64,000 bases of DNA from Rhodopseudomonas sp. AAP120. GTDB lineage: Bacteria > Pseudomonadota > Alphaproteobacteria > Rhizobiales > Xanthobacteraceae. Below the pieces are notes generated by a model. That model was not told where the DNA came from. It worked only from the letters and a program-made list of their open reading frames with translations, and made no database searches. The DNA lies in NCBI RefSeq assembly GCF_001295845.1, contig NZ_LJIC01000015.1, positions 1 through 64,000 on the forward strand, given 5' to 3'. The position numbers and the translations under genes were made by a program. This document shows, piece after piece, positions 30,385 to 51,034 of this stretch (position 1 is the first letter of the stretch; every line of letters begins with the position of its first letter).

Positions 30385-30409
30385 CGCGCTCTCCCGCGTG
30401 AAGCCGGAG

Positions 30410-31060: not shown

Positions 31061-31306
31061 CGAAGGTCTCCAAGTGGGGTGAGCGACGCGGCTGCGCCAG
31101 GTTCGTTCACTACCTTGCGCAAGATCGACGTACAGGGCTTGGACGAACCCGTCGCCGATTGCACGAACGCGCGGTGGGCGCGGATCACCCAAACGTTCAA
31201 ACCATCGCAGAAGCCTGCAAGTCTGCGATCGGCGGCGCCGATACTCTGCCGAGAACGACCGCCAACCCCTGCCGCACGGCCGCGGCGTTCGCCGATCGAG
31301 GACCGC

Positions 31307-33721: not shown

Positions 33722-34591
33722 ATGACGCAGACGACCGAACGACTACTCTGCCGCGACATTTTGGTCGTCGGTTGGAACAATCAGCAGATGCAGTCGGGTT
33801 TCGCATTCTCTCAATTCGCCAAACGACTGACGAGCCTCGCGGACCTGACCGATTCCGACTTGCAATTGCTGGCGGAGATGCCGGCTGCGATCCATCACTT
33901 CGCGCCGCGCGAAATCCTGCTGCGCAAAGGCGATCGGGCCGAGCACTGCTGTGTGCTGCTACAAGGCTATCTGTGCTGGCGCGACGGCAGCGGGCGAGAC
34001 CGCCAGATCACCGCAATCCACGTCCCGGGCGATGTTCCGGATCTGCACGCGATACTGATGCCCTGCGCCGACGCCACCCTGACGGCGCTCGGGCCGGCCG
34101 TGGTGGCCCTGGTGCCGCATGTGTTCTTCCACCGCATCGCCGGGCAGTCCCGCAAGATGGCGCATGCGCTGTCGATGCTCAGCCTCGCCGATATCGGCGT
34201 GCTGCGCAACTGGGTGGTGAATCTCGGCACCCGCAACGCGATGATGCGGGTCACGCATCTTCTATGTGAAATCGTCACTCGCCTTCAAGCCGTCGGCCAC
34301 GCCGGCAATTACCAGTTCCCGTCGCCGTTCACGCAGTCGGATCTCGCCGCGGCGTGTGGGATCTCCGCCGTCCACGCCAATCGAATCGTCCAGGACCTGC
34401 GCCGCGCCGGCTCGCTGCAGTGGCGCTCGAAAACGATCACCATCACCGATTGGAACGCGCTGCTGCGGCTGTCGGGTTTCACGCCGGATTACCTGCAGTT
34501 GCGCGGCACCGAGACAATAGGTGCGGCATCGCCGCGGGAAACGGCAGCGCAGCGACCTCGCCTCGGTGACTTCAGCCTCGCGCTGCCATGA
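33722..34591 (+). CDS. Crp/Fnr-family transcriptional regulator
   Basis: 289 residues from 33722, or 267 from the ATG at 33788 (MQSGFAFSQFAKRL), which may be the true start. A cyclic-nucleotide-binding-like domain (HFAPREILLRKGDRAEHCCV, LLQGYLCWRDG, VPGDVPDLHAIL) is followed by a winged helix: FTQSDLAAACGISAVHANRI. Neither the FNR iron-sulfur cysteines nor the cAMP-contact residues of CRP are obvious, so the ligand is unknown. Its end overlaps the convergent GT9-like gene by 20 bp. A related regulator gene lies at 50006-50968. Confidence 0.88.
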   Translation: MTQTTERLLCRDILVVGWNNQQMQSGFAFSQFAKRLTSLADLTDSDLQLLAEMPAAIHHFAPREILLRKGDRAEHCCVLLQGYLCWRDGSGRDRQITAIHVPGDVPDLHAILMPCADATLTALGPAVVALVPHVFFHRIAGQSRKMAHALSMLSLADIGVLRNWVVNLGTRNAMMRVTHLLCEIVTRLQAVGHAGNYQFPSPFTQSDLAAACGISAVHANRIVQDLRRAGSLQWRSKTITITDWNALLRLSGFTPDYLQLRGTETIGAASPRETAAQRPRLGDFSLALP

Positions 34592-35713: not shown

Positions 35714-35738
35714 GGAACGATCGCAAGATGCTCACGTT
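35714..35738 (+). promoter_or_regulatory. EcfG-type promoter GGAAC-N16-CGTT for the inositol/glycan cluster
   Basis: -35 GGAAC at 35714-35718, 16 bases, -10 CGTT at 35735-35738. This is a full match to the promoter consensus of the alphaproteobacterial general stress sigma factor EcfG. Transcription would begin about 35745, some 55 bases before the ino1-type ATG at 35799. The 294-bp gap 35505-35798 shows no gene otherwise. Confidence 0.8.
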
Positions 35739-35798
35739 CGCGAAGGTACTTACCTTGTCCACGGCCGCTCCGTGCTGCCATTCGGAGGGCGTCCCGCG

Positions 35799-36893
35799 AT
35801 GCATTCACGTCTCCAAGACCGGCGCCGCGTCCGGGTCGGCATCGTCGGCGTCGGCAATTGCGCGAGTTCGTTCGTCCAGGGCTTATCCTACTACAGCGAC
35901 GCGCGGTCGAACGAGCCGGTGCCCGGCCTGATGCACGTCGATCTCGGCGGCTACCACATCAGCGACATCGAGATCGCCGCGGCGTTCGACATCCACGCCG
36001 ACAAGGTCGGCCGCGACGTCGCCGACGCAATCCTGATCAAACCCAACAACACGCATCGTTTCGCGCAGGTGCCGCCGACCGGAACCATCGTGGCCCGCGG
36101 CCCGACGCTCGACGGCGTCGGCCGCTACATGGACGACGACATTCCGCTCTCCGACGCCGCCGAAGCCGATGTCGTGGATACGCTGCGCAAGTCACGCACG
36201 GATGTGCTGGTCTCCTATCTGCCGGTCGGCTCGCAGAAGGCGACCGAATGGTACGCCGAGCGCGCGCTCCACGCCGGCTGCGCCTTCGTCAACTGCATTC
36301 CGGTGTTCATCGCCTCGGATCCGGCCTGGCGCGCGCGCTTCGAGGTCGCCAATCTGCCGATCGTCGGCGACGACATCAAAAGCCAGCTCGGCGCCACCAT
36401 CCTGCATCGCATGCTCGCCAATTTGTTCCGCGAGCGCGGGGTCCAGCTCGACCGCACCTACCAGCTCAATGTCGGCGGCAACGCCGACTTCAAGAACATG
36501 CTGGAGCGTGAGCGGCTGGCGTCGAAGAAAATCTCCAAGACCCAGGCGGTCACCAGCCAGTTCGACGTGCCGCTCGAGGCGGACAACGTCCACGTCGGCC
36601 CGAGCGACTTCGTGCCGTGGCTGAGCGATCGCAAGCTCGCTTACATCCGGCTCGAAGGCACCACCTTCGGCGGCGTGCCGCTCAGCGCCGAGCTCAAGCT
36701 GGAAGTGTGGGATTCGCCGAACTCCGCCGGCGTGGTGATCGACGCGGTGCGCTGCGCCAAGCTGGCGATGGATCGCGGCATCGGCGGCGCCCTCACCGGC
36801 CCGTCGAGCTATTTCATGAAGTCGCCGCCGCGCCAGTTCACCGACGAAGAAGCCCGCCTCGCCACCCAGGATTTCATCGAGGGCAAGGCGTGA
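35799..36893 (+). CDS. ino1: Inositol-3-phosphate synthase
   Basis: 364 residues from the ATG at 35799, which has GGAGGG nine bases ahead. NAD-binding [16 protein letters not shown] at the N-terminus, then [33 protein letters not shown] and [20 protein letters not shown]. These are the signatures of the prokaryotic (actinobacterial-type) myo-inositol-1-phosphate synthases, which convert glucose 6-phosphate to L-myo-inositol 1-phosphate. In Proteobacteria the enzyme is uncommon. The start of a twelve-gene cluster for sugar transfer suggests that inositol (or its phosphate) becomes part of a glycan or lipid. The next gene could encode the matching phosphatase. Confidence 0.93.
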
Positions 36894-36900
36894 GGCCGCG

Positions 36901-37494
36901 ATGGTGAAGGTCATGCACCTCGTCCGCCACGGTCATCACGCCCTGCTCGGCAAGAAGCTGTGCGGCCGGATGCCCGGCGTCGATCTCGACGATTGCGGCC
37001 GCGAGCAGATGTGGCGCTGCGCCGAGCTGATGACGCCGCCGCCCGACGCGATCCAGAGCAGCCCGCAGCCGCGCACCCGGCAGTCCGCTTCGCTGCTGGC
37101 GGCGCAATTCGATCTGCCGATCGAGATCGTCGGCGCCGCGGACGAGATTGATGTCGGCGCCTGGACGGGAGTGGGGTTCGCCGATCTGGCGCGCGATCCC
37201 AGATGGCGGACATGGAACGAGCAGCGCGGCACGGCCCGCCCGCCCGGTGGTGAAAGCATGGCCGAGTTGCAGCGCCGGATCGTCCGGCACATCGAGGCGC
37301 TACGCGACGACCCCAGCGACACGATCGCGATCGTCAGCCATGCCGAGCCGATCCGCGCGGCGCTGCTGTACTACCTGAACCGATCGCTCGACGACTTCCT
37401 GTCGGTCGAGGTCGAGCCCGCCAGCATCTCGACGCTGCTGGTCTGGCCGGACCGGATCAGCATCCGCGACATCAACCGGCAGGTCCCGGCGTGA
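36901..37494 (+). CDS. Histidine phosphatase superfamily protein
   Basis: 197 residues. The N-terminus MHLVRHGHHALLGKKLCGR holds the catalytic RHG; TRQSASLLAAQF and AIVSHAEPIRAAL (second histidine) complete the phosphoglycerate-mutase-like active site. It begins 7 bp after the inositol-3-phosphate synthase stop, so dephosphorylation of inositol phosphate or of another sugar phosphate in the pathway is a sensible guess. Classical inositol monophosphatases belong to another family; this would be a replacement. Confidence 0.88.
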   Translation: MVKVMHLVRHGHHALLGKKLCGRMPGVDLDDCGREQMWRCAELMTPPPDAIQSSPQPRTRQSASLLAAQFDLPIEIVGAADEIDVGAWTGVGFADLARDPRWRTWNEQRGTARPPGGESMAELQRRIVRHIEALRDDPSDTIAIVSHAEPIRAALLYYLNRSLDDFLSVEVEPASISTLLVWPDRISIRDINRQVPA

Positions 37495-37540
37495 TGCTGC
37501 GGCTGATCTGACGCCCCACTGCCAACGGCGGGAGCCTGAC

Positions 37541-38305
37541 ATGACAACCACTTTGTCGATCGAAGAAATTCGCCGCCGCGTCAGCGAGCTGGGGCCGTGG
37601 TTTCACAATATCGAGCTGAACGGCGTTCCGACCGCGCCGAAGCATTTCCTCGGCGATTATCCGCGGGTGAAATGGCAGCGCTTCGCCGGCGTCATCCCCG
37701 ACACGCTCGCCGGCAAGACGGTGCTCGACATCGGCTGCAACGCGGGTTTCTACGCCATGGAGATGAAGCGCCGCGGCGCCGATCGTGTGCTGGGTCTCGA
37801 CACCGACGACGAATATCTGGCGCAGGCGAAGTTCGCCGCCGACGTCAACGGCCTCGACATCGAGTTTCGCAAGATGTCGACTTACGACGTCGGTCAGCTC
37901 GGCGAGACCTTCGACCTCGTGATCTTCATGGGCGTGCTCTACCACCTGCGTCACCCATTGCTGGCGCTCGACCTGATCCGCGAACACGTCGCCGGCGACA
38001 TGATGCTGTTCCAGTCGATGCTGCGCGGCAGCCCGCAGGTCGATGCCGTCGATGCCGACTATGATTTCTGGACGGTGTCGCAGTTCGACAGCCCCGGCTA
38101 TCCGAAGATGCACTTCATCGAGCAGCGCTACGCCGAGGATCCCACCAATTGGTGGGCGCCGAACCGCGCCTGCGTTGAAGCCATGCTGCGCAGCGCCGGC
38201 TTTGCGATCGCCGCGCATCCGGAAGAGGAAGTCTATCTGTGCCGGACCGCGCCGCGCCCGCAGGCCGACGGGGCCGTCTATCCCGCGCGAAGGAGCCACG
38301 GATGA
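37541..38305 (+). CDS. SAM-dependent methyltransferase of the glycan cluster
   Basis: 254 residues. SAM-binding motif GKTVLDIGCNAGFYAMEM near residues 62-80, then GLDTDDEYLAQAKFAA and FDLVIFMGVLYHLRHPLLAL. The fold resembles CmoB/tRNA uridine-5-oxyacetate methyltransferase-like proteins (VKWQRFAGVIPDTLAGKTV). From memory this matches the TIGRFAM group TIGR04290 (Rta_06860 family), which sits in a conserved cluster with a B12-binding radical SAM enzyme; I cannot check this here. It would methylate a sugar, cyclitol or lipid part of the product. Overlaps the next gene by 4 bp. Confidence 0.87.
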   Translation: MTTTLSIEEIRRRVSELGPWFHNIELNGVPTAPKHFLGDYPRVKWQRFAGVIPDTLAGKTVLDIGCNAGFYAMEMKRRGADRVLGLDTDDEYLAQAKFAADVNGLDIEFRKMSTYDVGQLGETFDLVIFMGVLYHLRHPLLALDLIREHVAGDMMLFQSMLRGSPQVDAVDADYDFWTVSQFDSPGYPKMHFIEQRYAEDPTNWWAPNRACVEAMLRSAGFAIAAHPEEEVYLCRTAPRPQADGAVYPARRSHG

Positions 38306-39246
38306 TCGAAGCCGCCAAGATCTGGAACGAGCCCAACAACAAATCGCATTGGGATCTCGAACTCGACCCGGCCTGGGAGAAATTCGCCGAGATGGCGATC
38401 GCGGCGGGGCGTGCGATCCGCGCGGTGCATCCGACGCTGCCGCGCGTGCTCGGCGGCATTTCGCCGATCGATCCGGCCTTCATCATCAACATGAAGGAAC
38501 GCGGCGTCCTCGAGCATGTCGACGTCGTCGCGGTGCACGGCTTCCCGCTCGACTGGAATCTCTGGCAGATCGACGAATGGCCGGCGAAGCTCGCCGAGAT
38601 CCAGGCGCTGGTGGCACTGCCGGTGTGGGTGACCGAGGTTGGCGTGTCGTCGTTCGGCGCCGAAGAAGTCCAAGCCTGGGGCCTGCAACGCACCGCGGAA
38701 CTGCTCGGCGGCCGTGCGCCGCGGATCCACTGGTACAGCCTGTATGATCTGCCGACCGCGTGGGAAGCGACCACGCGGCATCGCGAAGCCGAAGGCTCCA
38801 GTTATTATCGGCACTTCCACATGGGGCTGCTGCGCGAAGACGGCACCCCGAAGAAGGCGCTGAGCGTGTACGAGCAGCATGCGCATGCCATCGGCCTGTG
38901 CCAGTGGTTTCACTATCAGGACCACCGCCTCGACGAGGCGGTGCGCTGGCTGCGCCGTCTCGGCGTGAAGCAATTGCGGACCGGGCTGTCCTGGGCCGAC
39001 AGCTTCCGTCCCGATGCGCTGTCCTGGTTCGACCGGCAGATGGAGGCGCTGGCCGAATTCGACGTCACTGTCACGTTCTGCTTCACGCCCGAACATCTCG
39101 GCGTCGCGCCGCATCACACCAGCGCGCCGAAGCAGCCCGAAGCATTCGCGGAGTTCTGCGGCCGGATGATCGAGCGCTATTGCGATAGCAGCACCCGCGC
39201 CAGCGCCCCACCCGTTCCAATCCTGGCCGATGCGCCAGCGCCGTGA
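38302..39246 (+). CDS. Glycoside hydrolase-like protein (clan A TIM barrel) with apparently permuted order
   Basis: 314 residues from the ATG at 38302 (AAGGAG ahead, ATGA overlap with the methyltransferase). It begins directly with beta-strand 4 of a clan-A glycosidase, AAKIWNEPNNKSHWD with acid/base E10; VWVTEVGVSSFG with E112 is the likely nucleophile strand. After the usual barrel end (YRHFHMGLLREDGTPKKAL) the chain continues with what looks like strands 1-3: DEAVRWLRRLGVKQLRTGLS and FDVTVTFCFTPEHLGVAPHH, up to FAEFCGRMIERYC and a Pro/Ala tail. In standard beta-xylosidase-like enzymes these lie before the NEP strand. So the barrel seems circularly permuted, or the gene is a rearranged piece. 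Beta-xylosidase-like (GH39) relation is a guess from motifs. Confidence 0.7.
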   Translation: MIEAAKIWNEPNNKSHWDLELDPAWEKFAEMAIAAGRAIRAVHPTLPRVLGGISPIDPAFIINMKERGVLEHVDVVAVHGFPLDWNLWQIDEWPAKLAEIQALVALPVWVTEVGVSSFGAEEVQAWGLQRTAELLGGRAPRIHWYSLYDLPTAWEATTRHREAEGSSYYRHFHMGLLREDGTPKKALSVYEQHAHAIGLCQWFHYQDHRLDEAVRWLRRLGVKQLRTGLSWADSFRPDALSWFDRQMEALAEFDVTVTFCFTPEHLGVAPHHTSAPKQPEAFAEFCGRMIERYCDSSTRASAPPVPILADAPAP

Positions 39247-39425
39247 ACTTCACTCAGGTTAGTAAACCAGATGAAGGAAGCGTCAGATCAGCTGTTCGAT
39301 AGGAACGAACACACCGCCGCTCTCTTCTCACCTTCATGTAAGTACCACGATGCGTGCGCCGAGCACGAGCGTTCGCGCCCTCCCAGGGTGCGTGCAAAGT
39401 TTCAACGACAAGGGAGATGCGCGCA

Positions 39426-40538
39426 GTGGCACGGGTGCTGATTACAGGAGGCGCTGGGTTCATCGGTTCGCACGCCGCCGACGCTCTGCTGGGTGCCGGC
39501 TACGATATCCGCGTGCTCGATAATCTGTCGCCGCAGGTGCACGGCACGACGCGCAAGCGGCCCGACTATCTGGCCGACGATGCCGAGCTGATCGTCGGCG
39601 ATGTCACCGATCCGATCGCGGTGGAACGCGCGCTGCGCGGGGTCGACAAGGTGCTGCACCTCGCCTCCGCGGTCGGCGTCGGCCAGAGCATGTACGACAT
39701 CGCATCCTACGTGCAGATCAACGAGCTCGGCACTGCGGTGCTGCTCGAAGCGCTGGCCAAGCGCCCGGTCGGCAAACTCGTCGTCGCCTCGTCGATGAGC
39801 ATCTACGGCGAAGGGCTGTGCCGCGCATCGGACGGCACGACGGTTGCCCCTGCCGAGCGGCCGATCGGCCGACTACGCCAGGGCGATTGGGAGCTACATG
39901 CCGACGACGGCCAGCCGCTCGAGCCAGTTCCGACCCCGGAAACCAAGCAACCTGCGCTCAGCTCGATCTACGCGCTCAACAAATACGCGCAGGAGCGGAT
40001 GAGCCTGATCACCGGCAAGGCCTACGGCATCTCCACCCTGGCGCTGCGATTCTTCAACGTGTTCGGCCCGCGCCAGGCGCTGTCAAATCCCTACACCGGC
40101 GTGCTGGCGATCTTCGCATCGCGGCTGCTCAACGAGCGCCCGCCTCTCGTATTCGAAGACGGCCTGCAGCGGCGCGACTTCGTGCATGTCCGCGACGTCG
40201 CCCGCGCCTGCGTGCTGGCGCTGGAAAGCCAGCAGACCGACGCGGTCTACAACGTCGGCTCGGGTCAGTCCCGGTCGATTCTGTCGATCGCGCAGGACCT
40301 CGCTCGGGTGATGGGACGGCCGAACCTGCAGGCCGAGGTCACCGGCAAGTATCGTGCCGGCGACATTCGGCATTGCTTCGCCGACATCAGCCACAGCAAG
40401 GCAGAACTTGGCTTCGCCCCCAGCGTTTCGTTCGATACAGGGCTCGACGAACTCGCCACCTATCTGGCCGATCAGATCGCCGAAGATCGCGCCGAACAGG
40501 CCACCGAAGAGTTGCTGCGTCGGGGATTAGTCGCGTGA
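39426..40538 (+). CDS. NAD-dependent nucleotide-sugar epimerase/dehydratase 1
   Basis: 370 residues from GTG 39426 (AAGGGAG nine bases ahead); an ATG at 39417 is directly after the AAGGGAG and so less likely. Extended SDR: VLITGGAGFIGSHAADALLG at the N-terminus, SSMSIYGEG, and the catalytic YALNK. RFFNVFGPRQALSNPYTGVL and RRDFVHVRDVARACVLAL are typical of UDP-glucose 4-epimerase-like enzymes. It should interconvert or dehydrate a nucleotide sugar for the pathway. It is the first gene after the only sizeable gap in the cluster (39247-39425), where a GGAAC at 39302 lacks a good -10, so an internal promoter is possible but unproven. Overlaps the next gene by 4 bp. Confidence 0.88.
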   Translation: MARVLITGGAGFIGSHAADALLGAGYDIRVLDNLSPQVHGTTRKRPDYLADDAELIVGDVTDPIAVERALRGVDKVLHLASAVGVGQSMYDIASYVQINELGTAVLLEALAKRPVGKLVVASSMSIYGEGLCRASDGTTVAPAERPIGRLRQGDWELHADDGQPLEPVPTPETKQPALSSIYALNKYAQERMSLITGKAYGISTLALRFFNVFGPRQALSNPYTGVLAIFASRLLNERPPLVFEDGLQRRDFVHVRDVARACVLALESQQTDAVYNVGSGQSRSILSIAQDLARVMGRPNLQAEVTGKYRAGDIRHCFADISHSKAELGFAPSVSFDTGLDELATYLADQIAEDRAEQATEELLRRGLVA

Positions 40539-41599
40539 ACCGGCATGACCTCGACAAACCGACCCTGATCACCGGCGGCTGCGGCTTCATCGGCTGCAAT
40601 CTGGCGGATCGTCTCGCCGGCCAGGGTGGCCGCGTCATCGCGCTGGACAGCTTTGCCCGCGCCGGCGTGCAGGAAAACGCGACCTGGCTGAAGGCGCGCC
40701 ATGGCGATCGCGTCGAGATCGTCCATGCCGACATTCGCGATCCGACCCCGTTGATCGACGCGGTGCGCGACAGCCGTGCCGTCCTGCATCTCGCCGCGCA
40801 AGTCGCGGTCACCGACAGTGTCGACGACCCGGTGACGGATTTCGAGATCAACGCCCGCGGCACGCTGAATGTACTCGAGGCGATCCGGCTGCATAATCCC
40901 GATGCTCCACTGCTGTTCGCGTCGACCAACAAGGTCTACGGCCGCCTGATCGAGGATTCCGAAGTCGAGCGCCGCGGCGACCGCTACGTGCCCCGCGCCG
41001 AAGCGCTGGCGAACGGCGTCTCGGAAGCCACCCCGCTCGACTTTTACAGCCCCTATGGCTGCTCGAAAGGCACCGCTGATCAATACGTACACGACTATGC
41101 CCGCGTTTACGGGCTGACAACGATCGTGCTGCGGATGAGCTGCATCTACGGGCCGCGGCAATTCGGCACGGAAGATCAGGGCTGGATCGCGCACTTCCTG
41201 CTCAGCGTCTTGCGGGGCCAGCCGCTGACGATCTTCGGCGACGGCTATCAGGTGCGCGATGCCCTGCACGTCGCGGAGGCCGTCGACGCCTGGCTCGGCG
41301 CGCTGGAGCATGCCGAGCGGCTCAGAGGCCGCGTGTTCAATCTCGGCGGCGGGCCGGCGCACTCCACCAGTCTGCGCGAGCTGATTGCGGGGATCGCCCG
41401 CATGACCGGGCGCGAGGTGCAGCACTCCTTCGCCGAGTGGCGCCCCGGCGACCAGCCTTGGTACGTCACCGACACTCGCGCGCTCGAGGACGCGCTAAGC
41501 TGGCGCCCGCAGATCGGCCTGTCTGAAGGCCTCGCATCGCTGCACGACTGGCTCTCCACCCGGTTCGGCTCCTCTTCAAAGCGCGAGGCCAGCGCATGA
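40535..41599 (+). CDS. NAD-dependent nucleotide-sugar epimerase 2 (CDP-paratose/tyvelose epimerase-like)
   Basis: 354 residues from GTG 40535, overlapping the previous stop (GTGA). N-terminal TLITGGCGFIGCNLADRLAG, then STNKVYGRL, catalytic YGCSK in DFYSPYGCSKGTADQYVHDY, and LRMSCIYGPRQFGTEDQGWI. The TNKVYG and PYGCSKG patterns are those of CDP-paratose 2-epimerase (RfbE)-like enzymes, which act on deoxy sugars; exact substrate unknown. Two different epimerases in tandem suggest that at least one rare sugar is made here. Confidence 0.87.
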   Translation: MNRHDLDKPTLITGGCGFIGCNLADRLAGQGGRVIALDSFARAGVQENATWLKARHGDRVEIVHADIRDPTPLIDAVRDSRAVLHLAAQVAVTDSVDDPVTDFEINARGTLNVLEAIRLHNPDAPLLFASTNKVYGRLIEDSEVERRGDRYVPRAEALANGVSEATPLDFYSPYGCSKGTADQYVHDYARVYGLTTIVLRMSCIYGPRQFGTEDQGWIAHFLLSVLRGQPLTIFGDGYQVRDALHVAEAVDAWLGALEHAERLRGRVFNLGGGPAHSTSLRELIAGIARMTGREVQHSFAEWRPGDQPWYVTDTRALEDALSWRPQIGLSEGLASLHDWLSTRFGSSSKREASA

Positions 41600-42882
41600 G
41601 CCGTGTCGCGCTGATCAACCCGCATTGGCAGTTCGAAGGCAGCATCTATTTCGGCTGCCGCTCGCCGCATTTGCCGATCGAACTCGGCGTCTCGCAGCAT
41701 CTGCTGCAGCGGGCCGGTCACGCGACGCTGCTGCTCGACGCCCACATGTTCGAGCTGACCACCTCCGACATTCGCGCCGAGCTGGCGTCGTTCGAGCCGG
41801 ATCTGGTGGTCATCACCACCGCGCCGACCTATCTGTTCTGGCGCTGTGCGCCGCCCGAACTTCGCGTGCCGCAGCAGCTGATCACGGCGATCCGCGATCT
41901 GGCGCCAACGATCGTCGCGGTCGGCCCGCACGGCTCGACCACGCCCCGCGCCGCATTGCGCAAGCTCGGCGCCGAGTTCGTGGTGATGGGCGAATGCGAG
42001 CACTCGGTGCTGCGGCTGGCCAATGGCGAACGCGGCTTCGCCGGCCTGTGCTACGCCGAAGGTGAGGACGTCCGCGTCAATGGCGGCCCGCAAGCGGCGC
42101 CTTTCATCGACCAGCCGGCATTGAGCTGGCCGGACGAGATGATCCGGCGCCATCACCATCATCATCACCGCTTCGAGGCGGAGCCGGTCGGTCCCGGCGC
42201 CGAGGTCGAGGCTTCGCGCGGTTGCCCATATCACTGCACGTTCTGCGCCAAGGAGAATTTCCGCGACGCCTATCGCCGGCGCCCGCCCGCCGTGGTGCTG
42301 GACGAGGTTGCGGCGCTACGCGACCAGGGCACCGAATATGTGTACTTCATCGACGAGATCTTCCTTCCGAACGCCGAGCTGTTGCAGGGCCTGGTCGGCC
42401 GCGGCCTGAAGTTTGGCGTGCAGACCCGGATCGATCTCTGGAAGCCCGAAATGCTCCAATTGCTCGGCCGCGCCGGCTGCGTCTCGATCGAAGCCGGCAT
42501 CGAGAGCCTGACGCCCGAGGGCCGCGAGGCGCTCGCCAAGAATTGCCGGATGACCACCAATCAGCTCGCCGACCGCCTCATCGAGGCGCGGCGGCACGTG
42601 CCGTTCGTGCAGGCCAATCTGATCGAGATGCCGCAGGACGACGACCCCGTGGTGCAGCGCTGGCGCGCCCGGATGCTCGACGCCGGGGTGTGGGCCAACG
42701 ATCCGGTGCCGCTGTATCCCTACCCGGGCTCGCCGGACTATCGCAAGCTGTGGGGCATGCCCGACGACTCCGCCTGGGAGCGCGCGCATCAGCATTATCT
42801 TGCGCTGTTTGATCGCTTCAGCGACGTGCAGGAGCAGCGTCCCGTGCCGCTCGCCGAACTCGAATTGCAGGCCGCGCGATGA
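41596..42882 (+). CDS. B12-binding-domain radical SAM enzyme
   Basis: 428 residues. N-terminal B12-binding-like Rossmann domain (residues 1-170; MSRVALINPHWQFEGSIYFG, ELGVSQHLLQRAGHATLLLD). Radical SAM core from about 195: RGCPYHCTFC gives cluster cysteines C210, C214 and C217, followed by YVYFIDEIFLPN, FGVQTRIDLW and SIEAGIESLTPEGREALAKN. Such enzymes carry out methylations, cyclisations or rearrangements on unreactive carbons. From memory, TIGR04295 describes B12-radical SAM enzymes of a conserved rhizobial cluster of this make-up, to be checked. The linker between the domains holds six histidines in a row (186-191). Overlaps neighbours by 4 bp at both ends. Confidence 0.9.
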   Translation: MSRVALINPHWQFEGSIYFGCRSPHLPIELGVSQHLLQRAGHATLLLDAHMFELTTSDIRAELASFEPDLVVITTAPTYLFWRCAPPELRVPQQLITAIRDLAPTIVAVGPHGSTTPRAALRKLGAEFVVMGECEHSVLRLANGERGFAGLCYAEGEDVRVNGGPQAAPFIDQPALSWPDEMIRRHHHHHHRFEAEPVGPGAEVEASRGCPYHCTFCAKENFRDAYRRRPPAVVLDEVAALRDQGTEYVYFIDEIFLPNAELLQGLVGRGLKFGVQTRIDLWKPEMLQLLGRAGCVSIEAGIESLTPEGREALAKNCRMTTNQLADRLIEARRHVPFVQANLIEMPQDDDPVVQRWRARMLDAGVWANDPVPLYPYPGSPDYRKLWGMPDDSAWERAHQHYLALFDRFSDVQEQRPVPLAELELQAAR

Positions 42883-43982
42883 ACGGCTCACCCCTCACGC
42901 TGCTGATGACGGCCGACACCGTGGGCGGCGTGTGGACCTATGCGGCGAGCCTGGCCCGCGCGCTGGCGCAGCGCGACGTCAAGGTTCACCTGGTGACGAT
43001 GGGACCGCCGGCGCGGCCGGATCAGCGGGCGATGATCTCCGATGCGCGGATCGAGTTGATCGACAGCGAACTCGACCTGGAGTGGCGCGATCCCGGCGGC
43101 GACGATGTCGCACGGGCGCGCGGTTTGTTGCGCCGGATCGAGCCGCGGGTGCGGCCAGCCGTCGTCCACCTCAACAGCTTCCGCGAAGCCAGCTACGACT
43201 GGCATGCGCCGACCTTGCTCGTCGCGCATTCCTGCGTCAACTCCTGGTCCCGCGCCTGCGGCGACGGCGGATGGCTGCAGCAGCCGCACTGGCGGAACTA
43301 CACGCACGCGGTGGCGGCCGGCCTCGCCGCTGCGAACGCCTGGGTCGCCCCCACGACCGCTCTGCGCAAAGAGATCCTTGCGATCTATCAGCCGGGCTCG
43401 CCGAGCGAGGTGATTTGGAACGGCATCGATCATACCTTGGCGGCGATGCCGCCTAAGCGCAACTTTATCCTGGCGGCCGGCCGGATGTGGGATGCGGCGA
43501 AGAATTTGTCGGCGCTCGCCGAGGCTGCCGCCGGCCTGCCGTGGCCGGTGCTGGTCGCCGGCGACGAGTCATCGGAACCCGCGAGCGCGGAAAATCTGGC
43601 GTGCCTTGGTAGGTTGCCGCACGCGGCTCTCACGGCCCGGATGCAGCGCGCGGCGATCTTCGCCAGCCCCGCCAAGTACGAGCCGTTCGGCCTCGCGGTT
43701 CTCGAAGCGGCGGCCGCTGGCTGCGCGCTGGTGCTGTCCGACATCGCCAGCTTCCGCGAATTATGGGACGGCGCGGCGCGGTTTGTGCCGGCGTCAGATC
43801 CCCAGGTGCTCCACAAGGCGCTGGCGGAGCTGTGCGCCGACCGGGCCGAGCGCGAGCGTCTGCAGTACGCGGCCGCCGAGCGCGCCCGCCGCTATGCCCT
43901 CACCCGCACGGCCGACGCGTATCACGCGCTGTATCACAGGCTCGTCGCCGCAGCCGCCCGCGATCTCAAGGTGCCCGCATGA
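42879..43982 (+). CDS. Glycosyltransferase family 4 (GT-B)
   Basis: 367 residues. N-terminal TADTVGGVWTYAASLARALA is the acceptor-side start of GT4 enzymes; the donor side has NFILAAGRMWDAAKNLSAL, ASPAKYEPFGLAVLEAAAAG with the E-x7-E motif, and CALVLSDIASFRELWDGAAR. It should add a sugar from a nucleotide donor to the growing glycan. Position between the radical SAM enzyme and three CgeB-like transferases, with 4-bp overlaps on both sides, shows tight co-expression. Confidence 0.9.
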   Translation: MNGSPLTLLMTADTVGGVWTYAASLARALAQRDVKVHLVTMGPPARPDQRAMISDARIELIDSELDLEWRDPGGDDVARARGLLRRIEPRVRPAVVHLNSFREASYDWHAPTLLVAHSCVNSWSRACGDGGWLQQPHWRNYTHAVAAGLAAANAWVAPTTALRKEILAIYQPGSPSEVIWNGIDHTLAAMPPKRNFILAAGRMWDAAKNLSALAEAAAGLPWPVLVAGDESSEPASAENLACLGRLPHAALTARMQRAAIFASPAKYEPFGLAVLEAAAAGCALVLSDIASFRELWDGAARFVPASDPQVLHKALAELCADRAERERLQYAAAERARRYALTRTADAYHALYHRLVAAAARDLKVPA

Positions 43983-45100
43983 AATGCGTCCTGTTCTATC
44001 ACGCCTTCAGCTCCTGCTGGAATAACGGCAACGCGCACTTTGTCCGCGGCGTCGCGCGGGAGCTCGCCAGTCTCGGCCACCAGGTCGTGGTGTATGAGCC
44101 TGGCGACGGCTGGAGCCGCAGCAATGCGCTGGCGGATGGCGGTGCAGACGCGTTGGTTGAAGTGACGGAGTTGTTCGCCGACGTCGAAATCCGGGTCTAC
44201 GAACCGACGCTCGACCTCGATGAGGCCCTCGACGGCGCTGATCTCGTGCTCGTCCATGAGTGGAATCCCCCGGAGCTGATCGCCGAGATCGGCCGCCGGC
44301 GACTGAGCGGCTCGTTCGTGGCGCTGTTTCACGACACCCACCACCGCGCCGTCACCGCGCCCGACGAGATGGCGCGGTTCGAGCTCGACGGCTTCGATGG
44401 CGTGCTGGCGTTTGGTGAGGCGCTGCGGCAGATCTATCAGCAGCGCGGCTGGGCGCGGCGCGCTTTCACCTGGCACGAAGCCGCCGACACCGCGCTGTAT
44501 CACCCGCTGCCCGACGTCGCCCGCACCGACGATCTGGTGTGGATCGGCAACTGGGGCGACGGCGAGCGCAGCGCCGAGCTCGCGGAGTTTTTGATTGGTC
44601 CGGTCGCAGCGCTCGGCCTGCGCGCCGCGATCCACGGCGTGCGCTACTCGCGCGAGGCGCTCAGCGCCATCAAAGCCGCCGGCATCGCCTATCGCGGCTG
44701 GCTGCCGGCGCACCGCGTGCCCGAGGCCTTCGCAGCCGCGCACGTCACCGTGCATGTGCCGCGCGCGCCTTACGCCAAGGCACTGCCGGGTATCCCGACC
44801 ATCCGGATGTTCGAGGCGATGGCTTGCGGCATCCCGCTGGTGTCGGCGCCATGGGACGACGCGGAAGGATTGTTTCCGGACGGCAGCTACCTGAAGGCGC
44901 GGACCGGCCGCGAGATGCAAGATGTGCTGCGGACGCTGCTCGCCGACCCGGACCTTGCGACCGACATCTCCGCCGCAGGCCTGCAGGTCATCGCAGAGCG
45001 GCACTCCTGCCGCCACCGCGCCCTCGAATTGCTGACGCTGACCGAGAATATTCGCGGCCGGCAGGCACGGCCCACGCGACTTGAAGAGGCTCACCTATGA
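43979..45100 (+). CDS. CgeB-like glycosyltransferase 1
   Basis: 373 residues from ATG 43979 (ATGA overlap). Starts MKCVLFYHAFSSCWNNGNAH; C-terminal GT-B part has YRGWLPAHRVPEAFAAAHVT, VPRAPYAKALPGIPTIRMFE and AMACGIPLVSAPWDDAEGLF. The build (DUF3880-like N-terminus plus Glyco_trans_1_2) is that of CgeB/spore-maturation-type transferases. The first of three such paralogues in tandem, each ~365-373 residues, all beginning with a strand-SxxSxWxNG.A motif. They probably act one after another on one oligosaccharide. Confidence 0.87.
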   Translation: MKCVLFYHAFSSCWNNGNAHFVRGVARELASLGHQVVVYEPGDGWSRSNALADGGADALVEVTELFADVEIRVYEPTLDLDEALDGADLVLVHEWNPPELIAEIGRRRLSGSFVALFHDTHHRAVTAPDEMARFELDGFDGVLAFGEALRQIYQQRGWARRAFTWHEAADTALYHPLPDVARTDDLVWIGNWGDGERSAELAEFLIGPVAALGLRAAIHGVRYSREALSAIKAAGIAYRGWLPAHRVPEAFAAAHVTVHVPRAPYAKALPGIPTIRMFEAMACGIPLVSAPWDDAEGLFPDGSYLKARTGREMQDVLRTLLADPDLATDISAAGLQVIAERHSCRHRALELLTLTENIRGRQARPTRLEEAHL

Positions 45101-46188
45101 GAATCGCATTCTTCGGCTCGAGCCTGGTCTCCTCCTACTGGAACGGCGCGGCGACCTATTATCGCGGCATGCTCAAGGAGATCGCGGCGCTCGGCCACAG
45201 CATCACGTTCTACGAGCCGGACGCGTTTGACCGCCAGGCTAACCGCGACATCCCGGACCCGAGCTACGCGCGCGTTCACGTCTACCCGGCCACCAAAGAC
45301 GGCTGGCAGCGTGCGCTGGCCGAGGCGGTCGGCTCCGCCGATCTGTTGATCAAGGCCAGCGGCGTCGGCGTGTTCGATGCCGACCTCGAAACTGCCATCG
45401 CACAGGCGCCCGGCCCGGCGATGCGGTTCTATTGGGACGTCGACGCGCCGGCGACGCTCGACGCCATCGAGCGCGATGCCATGCACCATCTGCGCGACGC
45501 CATTCCGCGCTTCGATCTAGTGTTGACTTACGGCGGCGGCGAGCCGGTGATCAGCGCCTATCGCCGCTTCGGCGCGCGCGACTGCGTGCCGCTGTACAAC
45601 GCGCTCGACCCGGCGACGCATTTTCCCGCCACCCCCGATCCGCGCTTCGCCTGCGACCTTGGCCTGCTCGCCAATCGCTTGCCCGATCGCGAGACGCGGA
45701 TCGAGCGGTTCTTCTTCGACGTCGCGCAGCAATTGCCGGACAAGCAGTTCGTGCTCGGCGGCTCTGGCTGGGCGTCGAAGGCGATGCCGTCCAATGTGCG
45801 AGCGGTCGGCCACGTCGGCACCGGCGATCACAACGCGTTCTTTGCGTCGGGGCGCGCGACGCTCAACGTCAATCGCGACAGCATGGCCCGATACGGCTTC
45901 TCGCCACCCACCCGGGTGTTCGAGGCGATCGGCTGCGGCGCCTGCCTGATCACCGACGCCTGGGAAGGTGTCGAGCTGTTTCTCGACCCCGGCCGCGACG
46001 TGCTGGTCGCAGCCAGCACGGACGACGTGGTGCGGCATCTGCGCGAGCTGAGCCCGCAGCGCGCTGCCGAGATCGCCGAGCGAGCCCGGCGGCGCATCCT
46101 GGCCGACCACACCTACGCCCGCCGCGCGCAACAGTTCAATCGCCTGTTCAAGGGCGCCACCCTGGCAACCACCGAGGCCGCCGAATGA
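45097..46188 (+). CDS. CgeB-like glycosyltransferase 2
   Basis: 363 residues. N-terminus MRIAFFGSSLVSSYWNGAAT, TYYRGMLKEIAALGHSITFY; C-terminal DHNAFFASGRATLNVNRDSM and RYGFSPPTRVFEAIGCGACL, ITDAWEGVELF, the CgeB-like donor domain. Closest in the window to the gene that follows (shared ending RRRILADHTYARRAQQFN / RRRILADHTPAHRARQLV), so these two look like the products of a recent duplication. Overlaps both neighbours by 4 bp. Confidence 0.88.
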   Translation: MRIAFFGSSLVSSYWNGAATYYRGMLKEIAALGHSITFYEPDAFDRQANRDIPDPSYARVHVYPATKDGWQRALAEAVGSADLLIKASGVGVFDADLETAIAQAPGPAMRFYWDVDAPATLDAIERDAMHHLRDAIPRFDLVLTYGGGEPVISAYRRFGARDCVPLYNALDPATHFPATPDPRFACDLGLLANRLPDRETRIERFFFDVAQQLPDKQFVLGGSGWASKAMPSNVRAVGHVGTGDHNAFFASGRATLNVNRDSMARYGFSPPTRVFEAIGCGACLITDAWEGVELFLDPGRDVLVAASTDDVVRHLRELSPQRAAEIAERARRRILADHTYARRAQQFNRLFKGATLATTEAAE

Positions 46189-47306
46189 ACCTCGACATCG
46201 TCATCATCGGATTATCCGTCACCTCGTCGTGGGGCAACGGCCATGCCACGACCTTCCGCGCGCTGATCAACGCATTGGCGCGCGAAGGCCATCGCGCGAC
46301 CTTCCTGGAGCGTGACGTGCCGTGGTATCGGTCGCATCGCGATCTGGTCGAACCGGCAGACTGGAACATCGAGCTGTACGAGACCCTGCCCGAGCTGCCG
46401 CAGCGTCACACCGCGCTGATCCGCGACGCCGACCTGGTGATCGTCGGCTCCTACGTGCCGGACGGCATCGCTATCGCCGACTGGGTGACATGTACCGCCC
46501 AAGGCGTCACCGCATTCTACGATATCGACACGCCGGTGACGTTGGCGGGGCTGCCACGTGGGCTGAGCTATCTCACCGCGCCGCTGATCCCACGATTCGA
46601 TCTCTATCTCTCGTTCGCGGGCGGCCCGATCCCCGAACTCCTCGAAAAACAGTACGGCAGCCCGCTTGCATGCGTGCTCCCCTGCAGTGCCGATCCGGAT
46701 CTCTATCAGCCTCGTCAGATCGCAAAGCGGTGGTCTCTCGGCTATCTCGGCACCTACAGTGACGACCGTCAGTCCGGACTAGAGAGTTTGTTGATCGCGC
46801 CCGCCACGTCGCTCGACGATCAGAATTTCGTCGTCGCCGGGTCGCAATATCCGCCTGCGATCATTTGGCCGGAGAATGTCGAGCGCATCGCGCACCTGTC
46901 TCCCGATCATCACGCCGATTTCTATGGAGCGCAGCGTTTCACACTGAACCTCACCCGCGCCGACATGCGCGCTCTTGGCTATTCTCCCAGCGTGCGTCTG
47001 TTCGAAGCCGCGGCTTGCGGCGTGCCGGTGATCTCCGACCGTTGGCCAGGACTGGAGACGGTTTTCAAGCCGGCGAGCGAAATCCTGCTCGCGTCCGAGG
47101 CCCGCGACGTGATCGAGATCCTTCGCGACATGCCCGACGAACGACGATCAGCCATTGGCGAAGCCGCCAGACGACGCATCCTGGCCGACCACACACCCGC
47201 TCATCGTGCTCGCCAGTTGGTCGCCTACTACGCCGAAGCCTCAGGCCGTCGCCGCACGAAGTCGCTTCGTCCGGTCGAGCGCCCGATGCAAGCGGCCGAA
47301 CTCTGA
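46185..47306 (+). CDS. CgeB-like glycosyltransferase 3
   Basis: 373 residues from ATG 46185. N-terminus MNLDIVIIGLSVTSSWGNGH, ATTFRALINALAREGHRATF; C-terminal HADFYGAQRFTLNLTRADMR, LGYSPSVRLFEAAACGVPVI and SDRWPGLETVF. Same family as the two preceding genes. The codon use toward its 3' end and in the following UXS gene is slightly less GC-biased than upstream, but not enough to argue for transfer. The UDP-xylose synthase gene follows 10 bp later. Confidence 0.88.
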   Translation: MNLDIVIIGLSVTSSWGNGHATTFRALINALAREGHRATFLERDVPWYRSHRDLVEPADWNIELYETLPELPQRHTALIRDADLVIVGSYVPDGIAIADWVTCTAQGVTAFYDIDTPVTLAGLPRGLSYLTAPLIPRFDLYLSFAGGPIPELLEKQYGSPLACVLPCSADPDLYQPRQIAKRWSLGYLGTYSDDRQSGLESLLIAPATSLDDQNFVVAGSQYPPAIIWPENVERIAHLSPDHHADFYGAQRFTLNLTRADMRALGYSPSVRLFEAAACGVPVISDRWPGLETVFKPASEILLASEARDVIEILRDMPDERRSAIGEAARRRILADHTPAHRARQLVAYYAEASGRRRTKSLRPVERPMQAAEL

Positions 47307-47316
47307 AGGAGGCGTG

Positions 47317-48381
47317 ATGACAATCCAATATCGAAACGGGCACGCACGAGCGGATCACGCTCGTCGAACGCTAGTGACAGGCGGCGCCGGCTTTATCGGA
47401 TCGCATCTGTGCGATTCGCTGCTGCAGCGGGGCGACACGGTCGTATGCCTGGACAATCTCTTCACCGGCACGATGCACAATATTCGGCCGCTCCTCAATC
47501 ACCCGAACTTCCAATTCATCGAGCACGACGTTCGCGAACCGCTTGAACTCGACGGCGAGTTCGATCGCATCTTCAATATGGCCTGTCCGGCGTCGCCGCG
47601 GCATTATCAACGCGATCCGGTGGGAACGATGAAGACATGCGTTCTCGGCACCATCAACGTGCTGGACCTCGCGCGGGCAAAAGGCTCTCGGGTGCTGCAA
47701 GCTTCCACCAGCGAAATTTACGGCGATCCCGAAGTCCATCCGCAGACCGAAGACTATGTCGGGCACGTCAATGCCACGGGTCCGCGTGCTTGCTACGACG
47801 AGGGCAAGCGTGCCGCCGAGACCCTGATGTTCGACTACCATCGTGTCCACGGCGTCGAGATCAAGGTGGCGCGCATCTTCAATACCTATGGACCCCGAAT
47901 GCTGGAGAACGACGGTCGGGTCGTTTCCAACTTCATCGTTCAGGCGCTGCGGGGCGAGCCGATTACGATATACGGCAACGGATCACAGACACGCAGCTTC
48001 TGTTTCGTCGCGGATCTGATTCGAGGCCTGGAGCTTCTGATGGAATCGCCCGCCGAAGTCATAGGCCCCTGCAATCTCGGCAATCCGCACGAGGTGACCG
48101 TCGAGGCGATCGCCCGCGAGATCGTCGAACGCACGCAATCGACGTCGCTTTTGCAGTTCGAGCCGCTCCCGGTGGACGATCCCAAGCGCCGCAAGCCGGC
48201 GATCGACACCGCCATGCGAACCCTGGGCTGGCGGCCGGAAGTGGCTCTCCAAGACGGGCTAGAGGCAACGATCGCCCACTTTGCGCTGCGCATCGCAACG
48301 CCGGACGCCTCGGTGCCACCGGCAGATCATCGTTCCGGGAAAGCGGTGCGCCGGCGACTTTCCCTCGCCAGCAAGACATAG
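47317..48381 (+). CDS. uxs: UDP-glucuronic acid decarboxylase (UDP-xylose synthase)
   Basis: 354 residues from ATG 47317 with AAGGAGG five bases ahead. RTLVTGGAGFIGSHLCDSLL, NLFTGTMHNI, ACPASPRHYQRDPVGTMKTC, STSEIYGDP, catalytic YDEGK and RIFNTYGPRMLENDGRVVSN are the diagnostic UXS motifs. It turns UDP-glucuronate into UDP-xylose. As the last gene of the cluster it supplies a pentose donor, presumably for one of the four glycosyltransferases upstream, and fits the xylosidase-like protein at 38302. A C-terminal tail of about 25 residues exceeds the usual length. Confidence 0.92.
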   Translation: MTIQYRNGHARADHARRTLVTGGAGFIGSHLCDSLLQRGDTVVCLDNLFTGTMHNIRPLLNHPNFQFIEHDVREPLELDGEFDRIFNMACPASPRHYQRDPVGTMKTCVLGTINVLDLARAKGSRVLQASTSEIYGDPEVHPQTEDYVGHVNATGPRACYDEGKRAAETLMFDYHRVHGVEIKVARIFNTYGPRMLENDGRVVSNFIVQALRGEPITIYGNGSQTRSFCFVADLIRGLELLMESPAEVIGPCNLGNPHEVTVEAIAREIVERTQSTSLLQFEPLPVDDPKRRKPAIDTAMRTLGWRPEVALQDGLEATIAHFALRIATPDASVPPADHRSGKAVRRRLSLASKT

Positions 48382-48416: not shown

Positions 48417-48962
48417 TCAGATGCTGATCAGACCTTTCATTACGGCGAGCGCCAGCACGCCGAGATGCGTCTGCTCGCAGAATTGCCCCGACAGCGCCGC
48501 TTCGCGCACCTCTGCGGCCGTAGCAAGGATGACGCCGACACCCTCCTCCTCGATAAAGCTCGGTTGGCGCTCGCGGGTGCGAATAAAATACGAATGAGTG
48601 ATGTTGCTGATCCGGCTCGAGCAGGTTGCCCCTTGTCCGAGGAGCTCAATCGAACCTGTTGTGTAGCCGGTCTCCTCCCTCAATTCCCGGACCATCGCGT
48701 CGGCCGGGTCCTCGCCGTGCTCAAGCAGCCCCGCCGGCAGTTCGAGCGACATTCGCTCGATTGCCGGACGATACTGTCGGACCAACAAAATCTCCGATTG
48801 CGGGGTAACCGCGAGCGCAACGATATAGTCTCGCTGGCCGATCGCGTAGTACGTCTCGGCTGGCGTCTCCGGCCCGAACTGAACCTCGCGTGTGATGATC
48901 TCCAGCCAGGGTGAAACCGCCGTTCGGGCCCGTCCAACAATCCTTGGCCATCCCTCCGTCAT
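48417..48962 (-). CDS. Nudix hydrolase (ADP-ribose pyrophosphatase-like)
   Basis: 181 residues. The Nudix box G-x5-E-x7-REUxEExGU is seen as GLLEHGEDPADAMVRELREE followed by TGYT; just before it is the SLELPAG strand that marks ADP-ribose/NDP-sugar pyrophosphatases. It would cleave ADP-ribose or nucleotide sugars to a monophosphate and sugar phosphate. It converges on the UDP-xylose synthase gene (35-bp gap) and stands head to head with the DUF1003 gene. No GGAAC-type promoter is seen for it. Confidence 0.88.
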   Translation of the reverse strand: MTEGWPRIVGRARTAVSPWLEIITREVQFGPETPAETYYAIGQRDYIVALAVTPQSEILLVRQYRPAIERMSLELPAGLLEHGEDPADAMVRELREETGYTTGSIELLGQGATCSSRISNITHSYFIRTRERQPSFIEEEGVGVILATAAEVREAALSGQFCEQTHLGVLALAVMKGLISI

Positions 48963-49045
48963 CGTCCCTCCTCACTACGATTACCAAATCAACGAGCACC
49001 ACAATTTCGTTACAGCCCGGCGCCGCCGGCTTTCAGAGACAACAT

Positions 49046-49070
49046 GGAACGGCGGCGGTGAACTGTATTT
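49046..49070 (+). promoter_or_regulatory. Weak EcfG-like promoter for DUF1003 gene
   Basis: GGAAC at 49046-49050 and, after 16 bases, ATTT at 49067-49070. The -35 matches fully but the -10 lacks the GTT of the consensus. The distance to the start at 49102 is right, so it is listed at low confidence. Confidence 0.3.
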
Positions 49071-49101
49071 GTCCCACTTCACGAAGGACCGGAGCGGTCG
49101 A

Positions 49102-49608
49102 ATGAATCAGCGCCATCAATCGGCGGGCCTAAGCGCCACGCTGCACCACAATATCGATGCTCTCCGCGAAAAACGGCGTCAAGAGCATCTGGCCATGGGA
49201 CTCGAAGAGAAGGTCGCCGCTGCGATCACGTCCTTTACGGGCAGCATGAGGTTCGTGTACTTGCACTTGCTGATCTACGGCTCGTGGATCGTCTTCAACG
49301 TCCTCCCGGGCCTGCCGCATTTCGATCCGTCATTTGTCATGCTGGCGATGGTGGCTTCTGTCGAGGCTATCTTCCTGTCGACCTTCGTTCTGATCAGCCA
49401 GAATCGGGCAATGAAGGCGACGGACAAGCGCGACGATCTCGATCTTCACATCAACCTGCTCGCCGAACACGAACTTACCACCTTGATCAGACTGGTGAAT
49501 GCCATCGCCGAGAAATTGGAAGTTGCGCTTGCAGACCGCAACGGCGATTTGGCTGAGGTGACAAAGGACGTGGCGCCGGAGGCGGTCATGCGCGAGATCG
49601 AGAAATGA
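49102..49608 (+). CDS. DUF1003 membrane protein
   Basis: 168 residues from ATG 49102 (GGAG eight bases ahead). Residues 25-110 are the DUF1003 domain: two membrane helices (SMRFVYLHLLIYGSWIVFNV and FVMLAMVASVEAIFLSTFVL) followed by the conserved ISQNRAMKATDKRDDLDLHI. The C-terminal third is helical (LLAEHELTTLIRLVNAIAEK). DUF1003 proteins are of unknown function and common among stress-induced genes of Alphaproteobacteria. It opens the stress island. Confidence 0.88.
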   Translation: MNQRHQSAGLSATLHHNIDALREKRRQEHLAMGLEEKVAAAITSFTGSMRFVYLHLLIYGSWIVFNVLPGLPHFDPSFVMLAMVASVEAIFLSTFVLISQNRAMKATDKRDDLDLHINLLAEHELTTLIRLVNAIAEKLEVALADRNGDLAEVTKDVAPEAVMREIEK

Positions 49609-51009: not shown

Positions 51010-51034
51010 AACGCGGCCCGAACCGGGACGTTCC
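51010..51034 (-). promoter_or_regulatory. EcfG-type promoter GGAAC-N16-CGTT for the Crp/Fnr gene
   Basis: Read on the minus strand: GGAAC at 51034-51030, 16 bases, CGTT at 51013-51010. Expected start of transcription near 51003, 35 bases upstream of the ATG at 50968. Confidence 0.8.

Follow-up and report, generated by a model that had tools for sequence, protein, structure and literature searches.

A twelve-gene glycan cluster of Rhodopseudomonas with a circularly permuted glycosidase, two separable modules and a candidate general-stress promoter

We analysed a stretch of 64,000 nucleotides from Rhodopseudomonas sp. AAP120 (contig NZ_LJIC01000015.1, positions 1 to 64,000; hereafter the window), whose source genome comprises 6.16 Mb in 228 contigs, and focused on a cluster of twelve genes predicted to make a modified glycan. 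The twelve open reading frames exist in the order given by the first-pass annotation, all of them on the plus strand between 35799 and 48381. Seven of their eleven junctions are 4-bp overlaps and the remaining gaps measure 7, 46, 170 and 10 nt, which bears out the earlier description of twelve one-strand genes with mostly 4-bp overlaps. The start proposed there, 35714, coincides with the opening position of a promoter-like site; the first coding base lies at about 35799. The features of the locus are the following:

35714..35738, plus strand: promoter-like site of the EcfG type (general stress sigma factor), GGAAC-N16-CGTT, a pattern match
35799..36893, plus strand: ino1, inositol-3-phosphate synthase, mycothiol-type (TIGR03450, 532 bits, below the cut-off of 638; PF01658 above its cut-off)
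36901..37494, plus strand: histidine phosphatase or phosphomutase-like protein (PF00300; TIGR03848, 117 of 204 bits)
37541..38305, plus strand: TIGR04290 methyltransferase (381.7 bits, cut-off 300)
38302..39246, plus strand: circularly permuted GH39/PslG-like glycosidase, gh (Glu10 as acid/base and Glu112 as putative nucleophile conserved; PF11790 sub-threshold)
39417..40538, plus strand: epi1, GalE-like NDP-sugar epimerase (SDR family match)
40535..41599, plus strand: epi2, TyvE-like SDR protein (CDP-tyvelose 2-epimerase-like), which in other lineages carries a fused glycoside hydrolase (GH) domain
41596..42882, plus strand: TIGR04295 B12-binding radical SAM enzyme with a conserved RHxHHHHRF (734.1 bits, cut-off 400)
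42879..43982, plus strand: GT4 glycosyltransferase (family match)
43979..45100, plus strand: CgeB-like glycosyltransferase 1 (PF13524)
45097..46188, plus strand: CgeB-like glycosyltransferase 2 (PF13524)
46185..47306, plus strand: CgeB-like glycosyltransferase 3 (PF13524)
47317..48381, plus strand: UDP-glucuronate decarboxylase, that is, UDP-xylose synthase, UXS (best solved match at 1.3e-110)

Several statements of the first-pass annotation hold at this level. Its assignment to the TIGR04290/TIGR04295 system is correct, with both cut-offs passed in one contiguous run of twelve genes, and the last gene is a genuine UDP-xylose synthase, matched by solved UDP-glucuronate decarboxylases at 1e-110. 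It had also reported no polymerase, flippase or lipid-carrier transferase, and profile scans of the twelve proteins, to which the search for export functions was confined, agreed: none matched a model of these three kinds, and Wzx, Wzy, Wzm/Wzt and an initiating transferase are likewise absent among them. Regarding RNA elements, no Rfam family reached its gathering score between 35000 and 49500. As a whole, that earlier interpretation is supported only in part; it had missed the permutation of the glycosidase and had not named the promoter.

Judged from sequence comparisons, the glycosidase is almost certainly circularly permuted relative to a GH39/PslG-like domain. The protein begins just ahead of an Asn-Glu-Pro motif, which ends strand 4 in related clan A glycosidase barrels. 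When it was compared with seven epi2 proteins extended at the N-terminus, the halves were swapped in five, one half aligned in another (L046) and none in the last (L058). A profile built from six fused domains matched 61 of 61 orthologues as two swapped pieces, while the rotated glycosidase gave one continuous match of 205.8 bits over profile positions 20-305 of 330. The rotated protein also found PslG at 1.3e-5, in canonical order and over residues 9-157, whereas the native order gave no match at 0.01; one of the fused domains found PslG at 0.0039. The canonical beta1-beta8 strand order was not what we found: it is permuted in all 61 orthologues. N9-E10-P11 and E112 are conserved in at least 97% of them, and by analogy with GH39/PslG the two glutamates, E10 and E112, would be the putative catalytic pair. 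The AlphaFold2 model has eight strands and a mean pLDDT of 81.4.

Some results weigh against this assignment. No Pfam glycosidase model reached its cut-off with the native sequence, the rotated one or four fused domains (these last gave no match), and GH39 PF01229 scored 11.7 with the native and 15.7 with the rotated order, below the cut-off of 26. The acid/base loop is modelled with low confidence (residues 11-15 below 50). Besides, Foldseek returned weak barrel matches only for the permuted model, a result that speaks neither for nor against the GH39 relation because the aligner needs sequential order.

Ten fused domains with a GH-type motif were recognised by pattern (L074 and L079 stayed unclassified), the motif pair being intact in six and broken in four. 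The permuted gene occurs in all four genomes with a broken domain and in none of the three searched genomes with an intact one (Fisher p = 0.03; the intact fused genomes L080, L086 and L087 lay outside this search). Among the 11 genomes carrying the radical SAM gene in a sample of 290 Alphaproteobacteria genomes (the class sample), five have the permuted gene and six a GH domain in the fused order without it; G260, one of the former, shows an additional partial match. Matches to the permuted gene cross in-frame stops in five draft genomes (G298, G292, G301, G260 and G373), and the frame is complete in L071, which is the same genome as G301. Mapped onto the tree of the radical SAM protein, the unfused state calls for a minimum of four changes (five of the 38 rows fall outside the groups). 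On the simplest view, the permuted stand-alone gene probably took over the role of the fused domain more than once.

To place the cluster in a wider context, we used the class sample, 196 genomes of the window's family (the family sample) and a locus set made of the best 80 of 135 relatives. Counts over loci are not independent because many of the loci are from Bradyrhizobium, so the two genome samples are the better base. Gene presence at the loci was judged from tblastn and public annotation, as the gene caller was error-prone. In the class sample the radical SAM enzyme scored above its cut-off in 11 genomes and the methyltransferase in 12, with both in 11 of the 11 radical SAM carriers (Fisher p = 5e-19, far beyond chance). 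In the family sample we found 16 radical SAM, 17 methyltransferase and 18 glycosidase genes (one of them partial), and all three were present in each of the 16 carriers. The methyltransferase occurred without the radical SAM gene in one genome of each sample. The conserved co-occurrence predicted for the main families was thus confirmed.

Of the 15 genomes listed for the window's genus only two carry the cluster, the window's own and G332, and on this ground we consider it patchy within the genus. The nearest radical SAM relative found comes from Rhodopseudomonas pentothenatexigens (84%), and the locus scan retrieved relatives in Bradyrhizobium, Rhodopseudomonas, Azospirillum, Methylorubrum, Belnapia, Skermanella, Acidobacteriota, Cyanobacteria and others. 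At least nine plasmid records, counted among 20 listed of 62 matched, hold a nearly full-length relative with an identity of at least 58%, and Bradyrhizobium sp. 195 has two cluster copies on two conjugative plasmids (L084 and L088). Bradyrhizobium sp. 164 also has two copies, on two contigs (L011 and L032). A link to phages was considered and rejected, since the only match, weak and partial, was to a single phage represented by two records.

The comparison of loci divided the cluster into two modules. Module B contains epi1, epi2, the radical SAM enzyme, the GT4 transferase, three CgeB transferases and often UXS, with an order that is mostly kept, and is also present in Acidobacteriota and Cyanobacteriota. 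Module A consists of the methyltransferase and the permuted glycosidase, usually with ino1 and the phosphatase and elsewhere also with a nucleotidyltransferase and a fourth CgeB transferase. It lies upstream of module B on the same strand in Bradyrhizobium, divergently in Belnapia and downstream in Methylorubrum. The methyltransferase adjoins a distant glycosidase gene in 11 of the 12 stretches examined. In Bradyrhizobium the cluster has 15 genes, the extra ones being the fourth CgeB transferase, a sugar-type nucleotidyltransferase and a phosphopentomutase (510 bits, cut-off 256). These three are missing from the window and from its nearest relative, and no remnants of them were seen in the window; in the source genome, all that was found for the nucleotidyltransferase is a match of 28% on a different contig, and a search run without a positive control found no DeoB homologue. 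UXS is itself missing from some clusters, such as that of Azospirillum Az39. A fixed unit of twelve genes was rejected on account of the two separable modules, their variable arrangement and the 15 genes of Bradyrhizobium, and the expected co-occurrence of all twelve families failed, with ino1 in 4 of 11 carriers and no UXS in the Az39 cluster. Beside module A, Azospirillum encodes a 584-aa protein with no Pfam or NCBIfam match (L085:7296-9050, minus strand), relatives of which lie near the Chelatococcus (L073, at about 5745) and Bryobacterales (L101, at about 3103) clusters.

One could argue that the modules are separate, neighbouring stress pathways under shared regulation, with A making a methylated inositol glycoside and B another glycan. 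Two genomes, G242 and G478, do have the methyltransferase and the glycosidase but no radical SAM gene, with ino1 next to the pair in G242; module A can therefore serve a purpose by itself, a point that also counts against a single product. The three relative arrangements go in the same direction, as do loci L040, L041 and L044, in which each module has its own EcfG site ahead of it. Against this, two lineages whose epi2 contains the fused GH domain retain the methyltransferase after module B, and the coincidence of broken fused domains with the permuted gene of module A (4/4) ties the modules together. We regard two separate pathways as improbable, and as the least probable of the alternatives weighed here.

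Regarding inositol, the first-pass annotation had proposed that the product contains inositol and xylose, and as a core this was not borne out. At E <= 0.001, Ino1 was detected in 22 of the 290 class-sample genomes; of the 11 radical SAM carriers, four have it. The other seven carriers have no Ino1 match genome-wide, and inositol as a universal core was rejected. Given this count and the absence of UXS from some clusters, neither inositol nor xylose can be assumed to form the product's core. The distribution of Ino1 follows that of the permuted glycosidase, being present in 15 of 19 genomes with this gene and in 1 of 11 without it (Fisher p = 4e-4), a comparison that joins the 11 class-sample carriers to 19 locus genomes, two sets that might overlap. 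In the window's own lineage, inositol as the acceptor is a tentative suggestion that we would not favour at present.

Upstream of the cluster, the EcfG-type site suggests how it is regulated. The strict EcfG pattern, GGAAC-N16/17-CGTT, was found in the 150 nt preceding ino1 at 48 of 60 loci, including 43 of 43 from Bradyrhizobium together with L040, L041, L044, L073 and the window. It also precedes epi1 in 10 of 81 loci, seven of which have no module A directly upstream, and cgeb1 in 4 of 84, all from Belnapia. None was found before pgm, mt, gh, epi2, rsam, gt4, cgeb2, cgeb3 or uxs, and mononucleotide shuffles gave the pattern in 15 of 12,000 cases. The site agrees with the EcfG motif published for Sphingomonas, GGAAC-N17-20-GTT, in the part of that paper available (PMC6599016), where the EcfG-dependent genes include Ku and topoisomerase IB. 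Both are also among the neighbours of the cluster in annotated relatives, along with LigD, treZ, DUF1003 and Mn catalase, and a DUF1003 gene follows the cluster in Azospirillum Az39 as in the window. EcfG is alphaproteobacterial, and the lack of a site before epi1 in the five Acidobacteriota and Cyanobacteria loci is what would be expected in that case. From the pattern and its conservation, EcfG control of the cluster in Rhodopseudomonas and Bradyrhizobium appears very probable.

Other observations reduce the strength of this conclusion. The strict site is absent before ino1 in 12 of the 60 loci (L004, five Methylobacteriaceae, four Belnapia, L082 and L085), and the nearest relative, L004, has a GGTT variant only. 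Stress-type neighbours are infrequent over 97 loci, with topoisomerase IB in 6, DUF1003 and Mn catalase in 5 each, treZ in 3, and Ku and LigD in 1 each.

The surroundings of the cluster in the window contain further regulatory features. Crp/Fnr-family regulators flank it on both sides (33722-34591, plus strand; 50006-50968, minus strand), and one cluster copy of Bradyrhizobium sp. 195 likewise has a Crp/Fnr regulator upstream. Directly downstream lie a NUDIX gene (48417-48962, minus strand) and the DUF1003 gene (48892-49608, plus strand). Four more EcfG-type sites follow at 51034 (minus), 54088 (plus), 55686 (minus) and 56777 (plus), near a Crp/Fnr regulator, a DUF4142 gene, an open reading frame with no assignment and a patatin-like gene; the region downstream of the cluster may be a stress island. 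Further upstream, 30398-32941 (plus strand) encodes an 847-aa protein in which the MFS transporter domain starts only near residue 325.

Among the enzymes of module B, epi2 is probably a C2 epimerase, because CDP-tyvelose 2-epimerase is by far its nearest solved protein (4e-81, the next one at 5e-37). The radical SAM protein has a CxxxCxxC motif, and the RHxHHHHRF run lies about 20 residues ahead of it (residues 185-193). Among 86 orthologues, the longest His run has six residues in 67 and four in 17, and one orthologue each has three and two; a run of four to six is thus kept in 84 of 86 orthologues from three phyla. The model of the protein (pLDDT 88.7) had TsrM, OxsB, MgmA, CysS, TokK and AprD4 as its nearest Foldseek matches, and this supports a radical C-methylation or rearrangement, the choice between the two being undecided. 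A point against this is the B12-binding Pfam score of 28.3, below the cut-off of 32.1.

Taken together, these observations point to a general-stress-induced, small methylated oligosaccharide or glycoside, most likely intracellular, that may be inositol-linked in this lineage, a combined reading to which we give a probability of roughly 0.4. Taken separately, we favour a methylated oligosaccharide or glycoside as the kind of product with some confidence, and we consider its retention inside the cell an evenly balanced question. The genes needed for assembling and modifying a short glycan are in the cluster, and none is recognisable for polymerisation or export; we propose a mostly intracellular oligosaccharide, turned over by its own glycosidase. 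A housekeeping exporter encoded elsewhere in the genome could still move the product out, which counts against retention.

In the proposed pathway, UXS would provide UDP-xylose, and epi1 and epi2 would provide other activated sugars, epi2 by C2 epimerisation. The GT4 enzyme would start the chain, to which each of the three CgeB enzymes would add about one sugar. The cobalamin-dependent radical SAM enzyme would C-methylate or otherwise rearrange a sugar, and the TIGR04290 enzyme would add an O-methyl group. The glycosidase may trim or recycle the chain, as MmpH does for the mycobacterial methylmannose polysaccharide or PslG beside the Psl pathway, a step that would originally have belonged to a domain of epi2 before the permuted stand-alone gene replaced it, probably several times. 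Inositol derived from Ino1 is a possible acceptor here, and lineages without Ino1 would have to use another.

The lack of export genes among the twelve is also compatible with a glycolipid, in which the transferases would decorate an inner-leaflet lipid (a hopanoid, a phosphatidylinositol-like lipid or lipid A) with no need for a flippase or a polymerase. In other bacteria, the inositol of inositol lipids is provided by an Ino1, and GT4 and CgeB3 have weak matches to models of glycolipid synthases, NF053787 and NF053513 among them. These scores are far below the cut-offs (34 of 480 and 33 of 460 bits), the twelve genes include no acyltransferase, phosphatidyltransferase or prenyl carrier gene, and seven of the 11 carriers have no ino1. 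We consider a glycolipid unlikely, and we give about the same weight to an exported surface polysaccharide or lipopolysaccharide decoration that would rely on housekeeping machinery encoded elsewhere. Bradyrhizose is an inositol-fused sugar, and in Bradyrhizobium such a product might be related to it. PslG, to which the rotated glycosidase is closest among solved proteins, belongs to an exopolysaccharide cluster according to the available part of the source (PMC11912335), and in Sphingomonas the genes that depend on EcfG encode, among others, glycosyltransferases and a protein of exopolysaccharide biosynthesis (PMC6599016, likewise in part). On the other hand, the twelve genes lack the export and initiation functions named above, with which export genes elsewhere remain compatible, module B extends to Acidobacteriota and Cyanobacteriota, and ino1 is accessory.

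If a small stress-induced intracellular glycoside is indeed the product, it might represent a new class of stress-protective, radically modified, methylated cytosolic oligosaccharides common to Alphaproteobacteria, Acidobacteriota and Cyanobacteria, controlled by the general stress response in the Alphaproteobacteria and with a glycosidase repeatedly replaced by a permuted copy in a separate mobile module. We offer this broader proposal as speculative. Many genes under the general stress response of Alphaproteobacteria have no known product, and some of the soil bacteria with the cluster serve as inoculants. A promoter conserved in all 43 Bradyrhizobium loci indicates a growth condition in which to search for the compound, so that an annotation puzzle becomes testable. 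The glycosidase is, in turn, a rare natural experiment, in which fused canonical and stand-alone permuted forms seemingly interchange within one pathway.

Literature searches in openly licensed papers returned none on the product or its regulation, in line with the earlier statement that the product is undescribed, and the name 'rhizo-twelve', given in the first-pass annotation, was found in no paper. Neither inositol nor any of the locus tags Rta_068/069 is named in the main text of the Ramlibacter genome paper (PMC3164672). In the accessible part of a paper on B. diazoefficiens and root exudate, 'glycosyltransferase' and 'radical SAM' do not appear, and inositol does so only as a carbon source and in the references (PMC5591287).

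Finally, we compared the cluster with known systems. The closest is the TIGR04290/TIGR04295 system itself, a pair of NCBIfam hypothetical equivalogs whose likeness lies in the two defining proteins, found here above cut-off in a contiguous run. The TIGR04295 model is named B12_rSAM_oligo, and neither model names a product; the permuted glycosidase, the EcfG site and the two modules are, as far as our searches go, described nowhere. The mycothiol pathway resembles the cluster in three respects: the mycothiol-type model gives the best match to Ino1, that of the phosphatase is to MSMEG_4193, and a GT4 enzyme is present. Membership in the mycothiol pathway was rejected by the scores (TIGR03450, 532 of 638 bits; phosphatase, 117 of 204; MshA TIGR03449, 36 of 462). 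With TsrM, OxsB, MgmA, CysS, TokK and AprD4 the radical SAM enzyme has in common the two-domain fold (Foldseek 2e-19 to 4e-12) and CxxxCxxC, at 13-21% identity, and differs in its conserved RHxHHHHRF. PslG, a GH39-family endoglycosidase of the Psl cluster, is related in sequence to the rotated gh and is likewise set in a glycan biosynthesis cluster, as the available part of the source describes it (PMC11912335); in contrast, the chain order is permuted here, there are no polymer export genes and the catalysis of gh is a prediction. The mycobacterial methylmannose polysaccharide cluster (MeT1, MmpH, pMeT3 and ManT) is similarly small and joins a glycosyltransferase and a methyltransferase to a dedicated glycosidase, as presented in the portion of the source available (PMC9883506). 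MmpH is an (alpha/alpha)6 barrel, unlike the permuted TIM barrel of this cluster, and the four genes there encode neither a radical SAM enzyme nor an epimerase, UXS or Ino1, all of which are present here.

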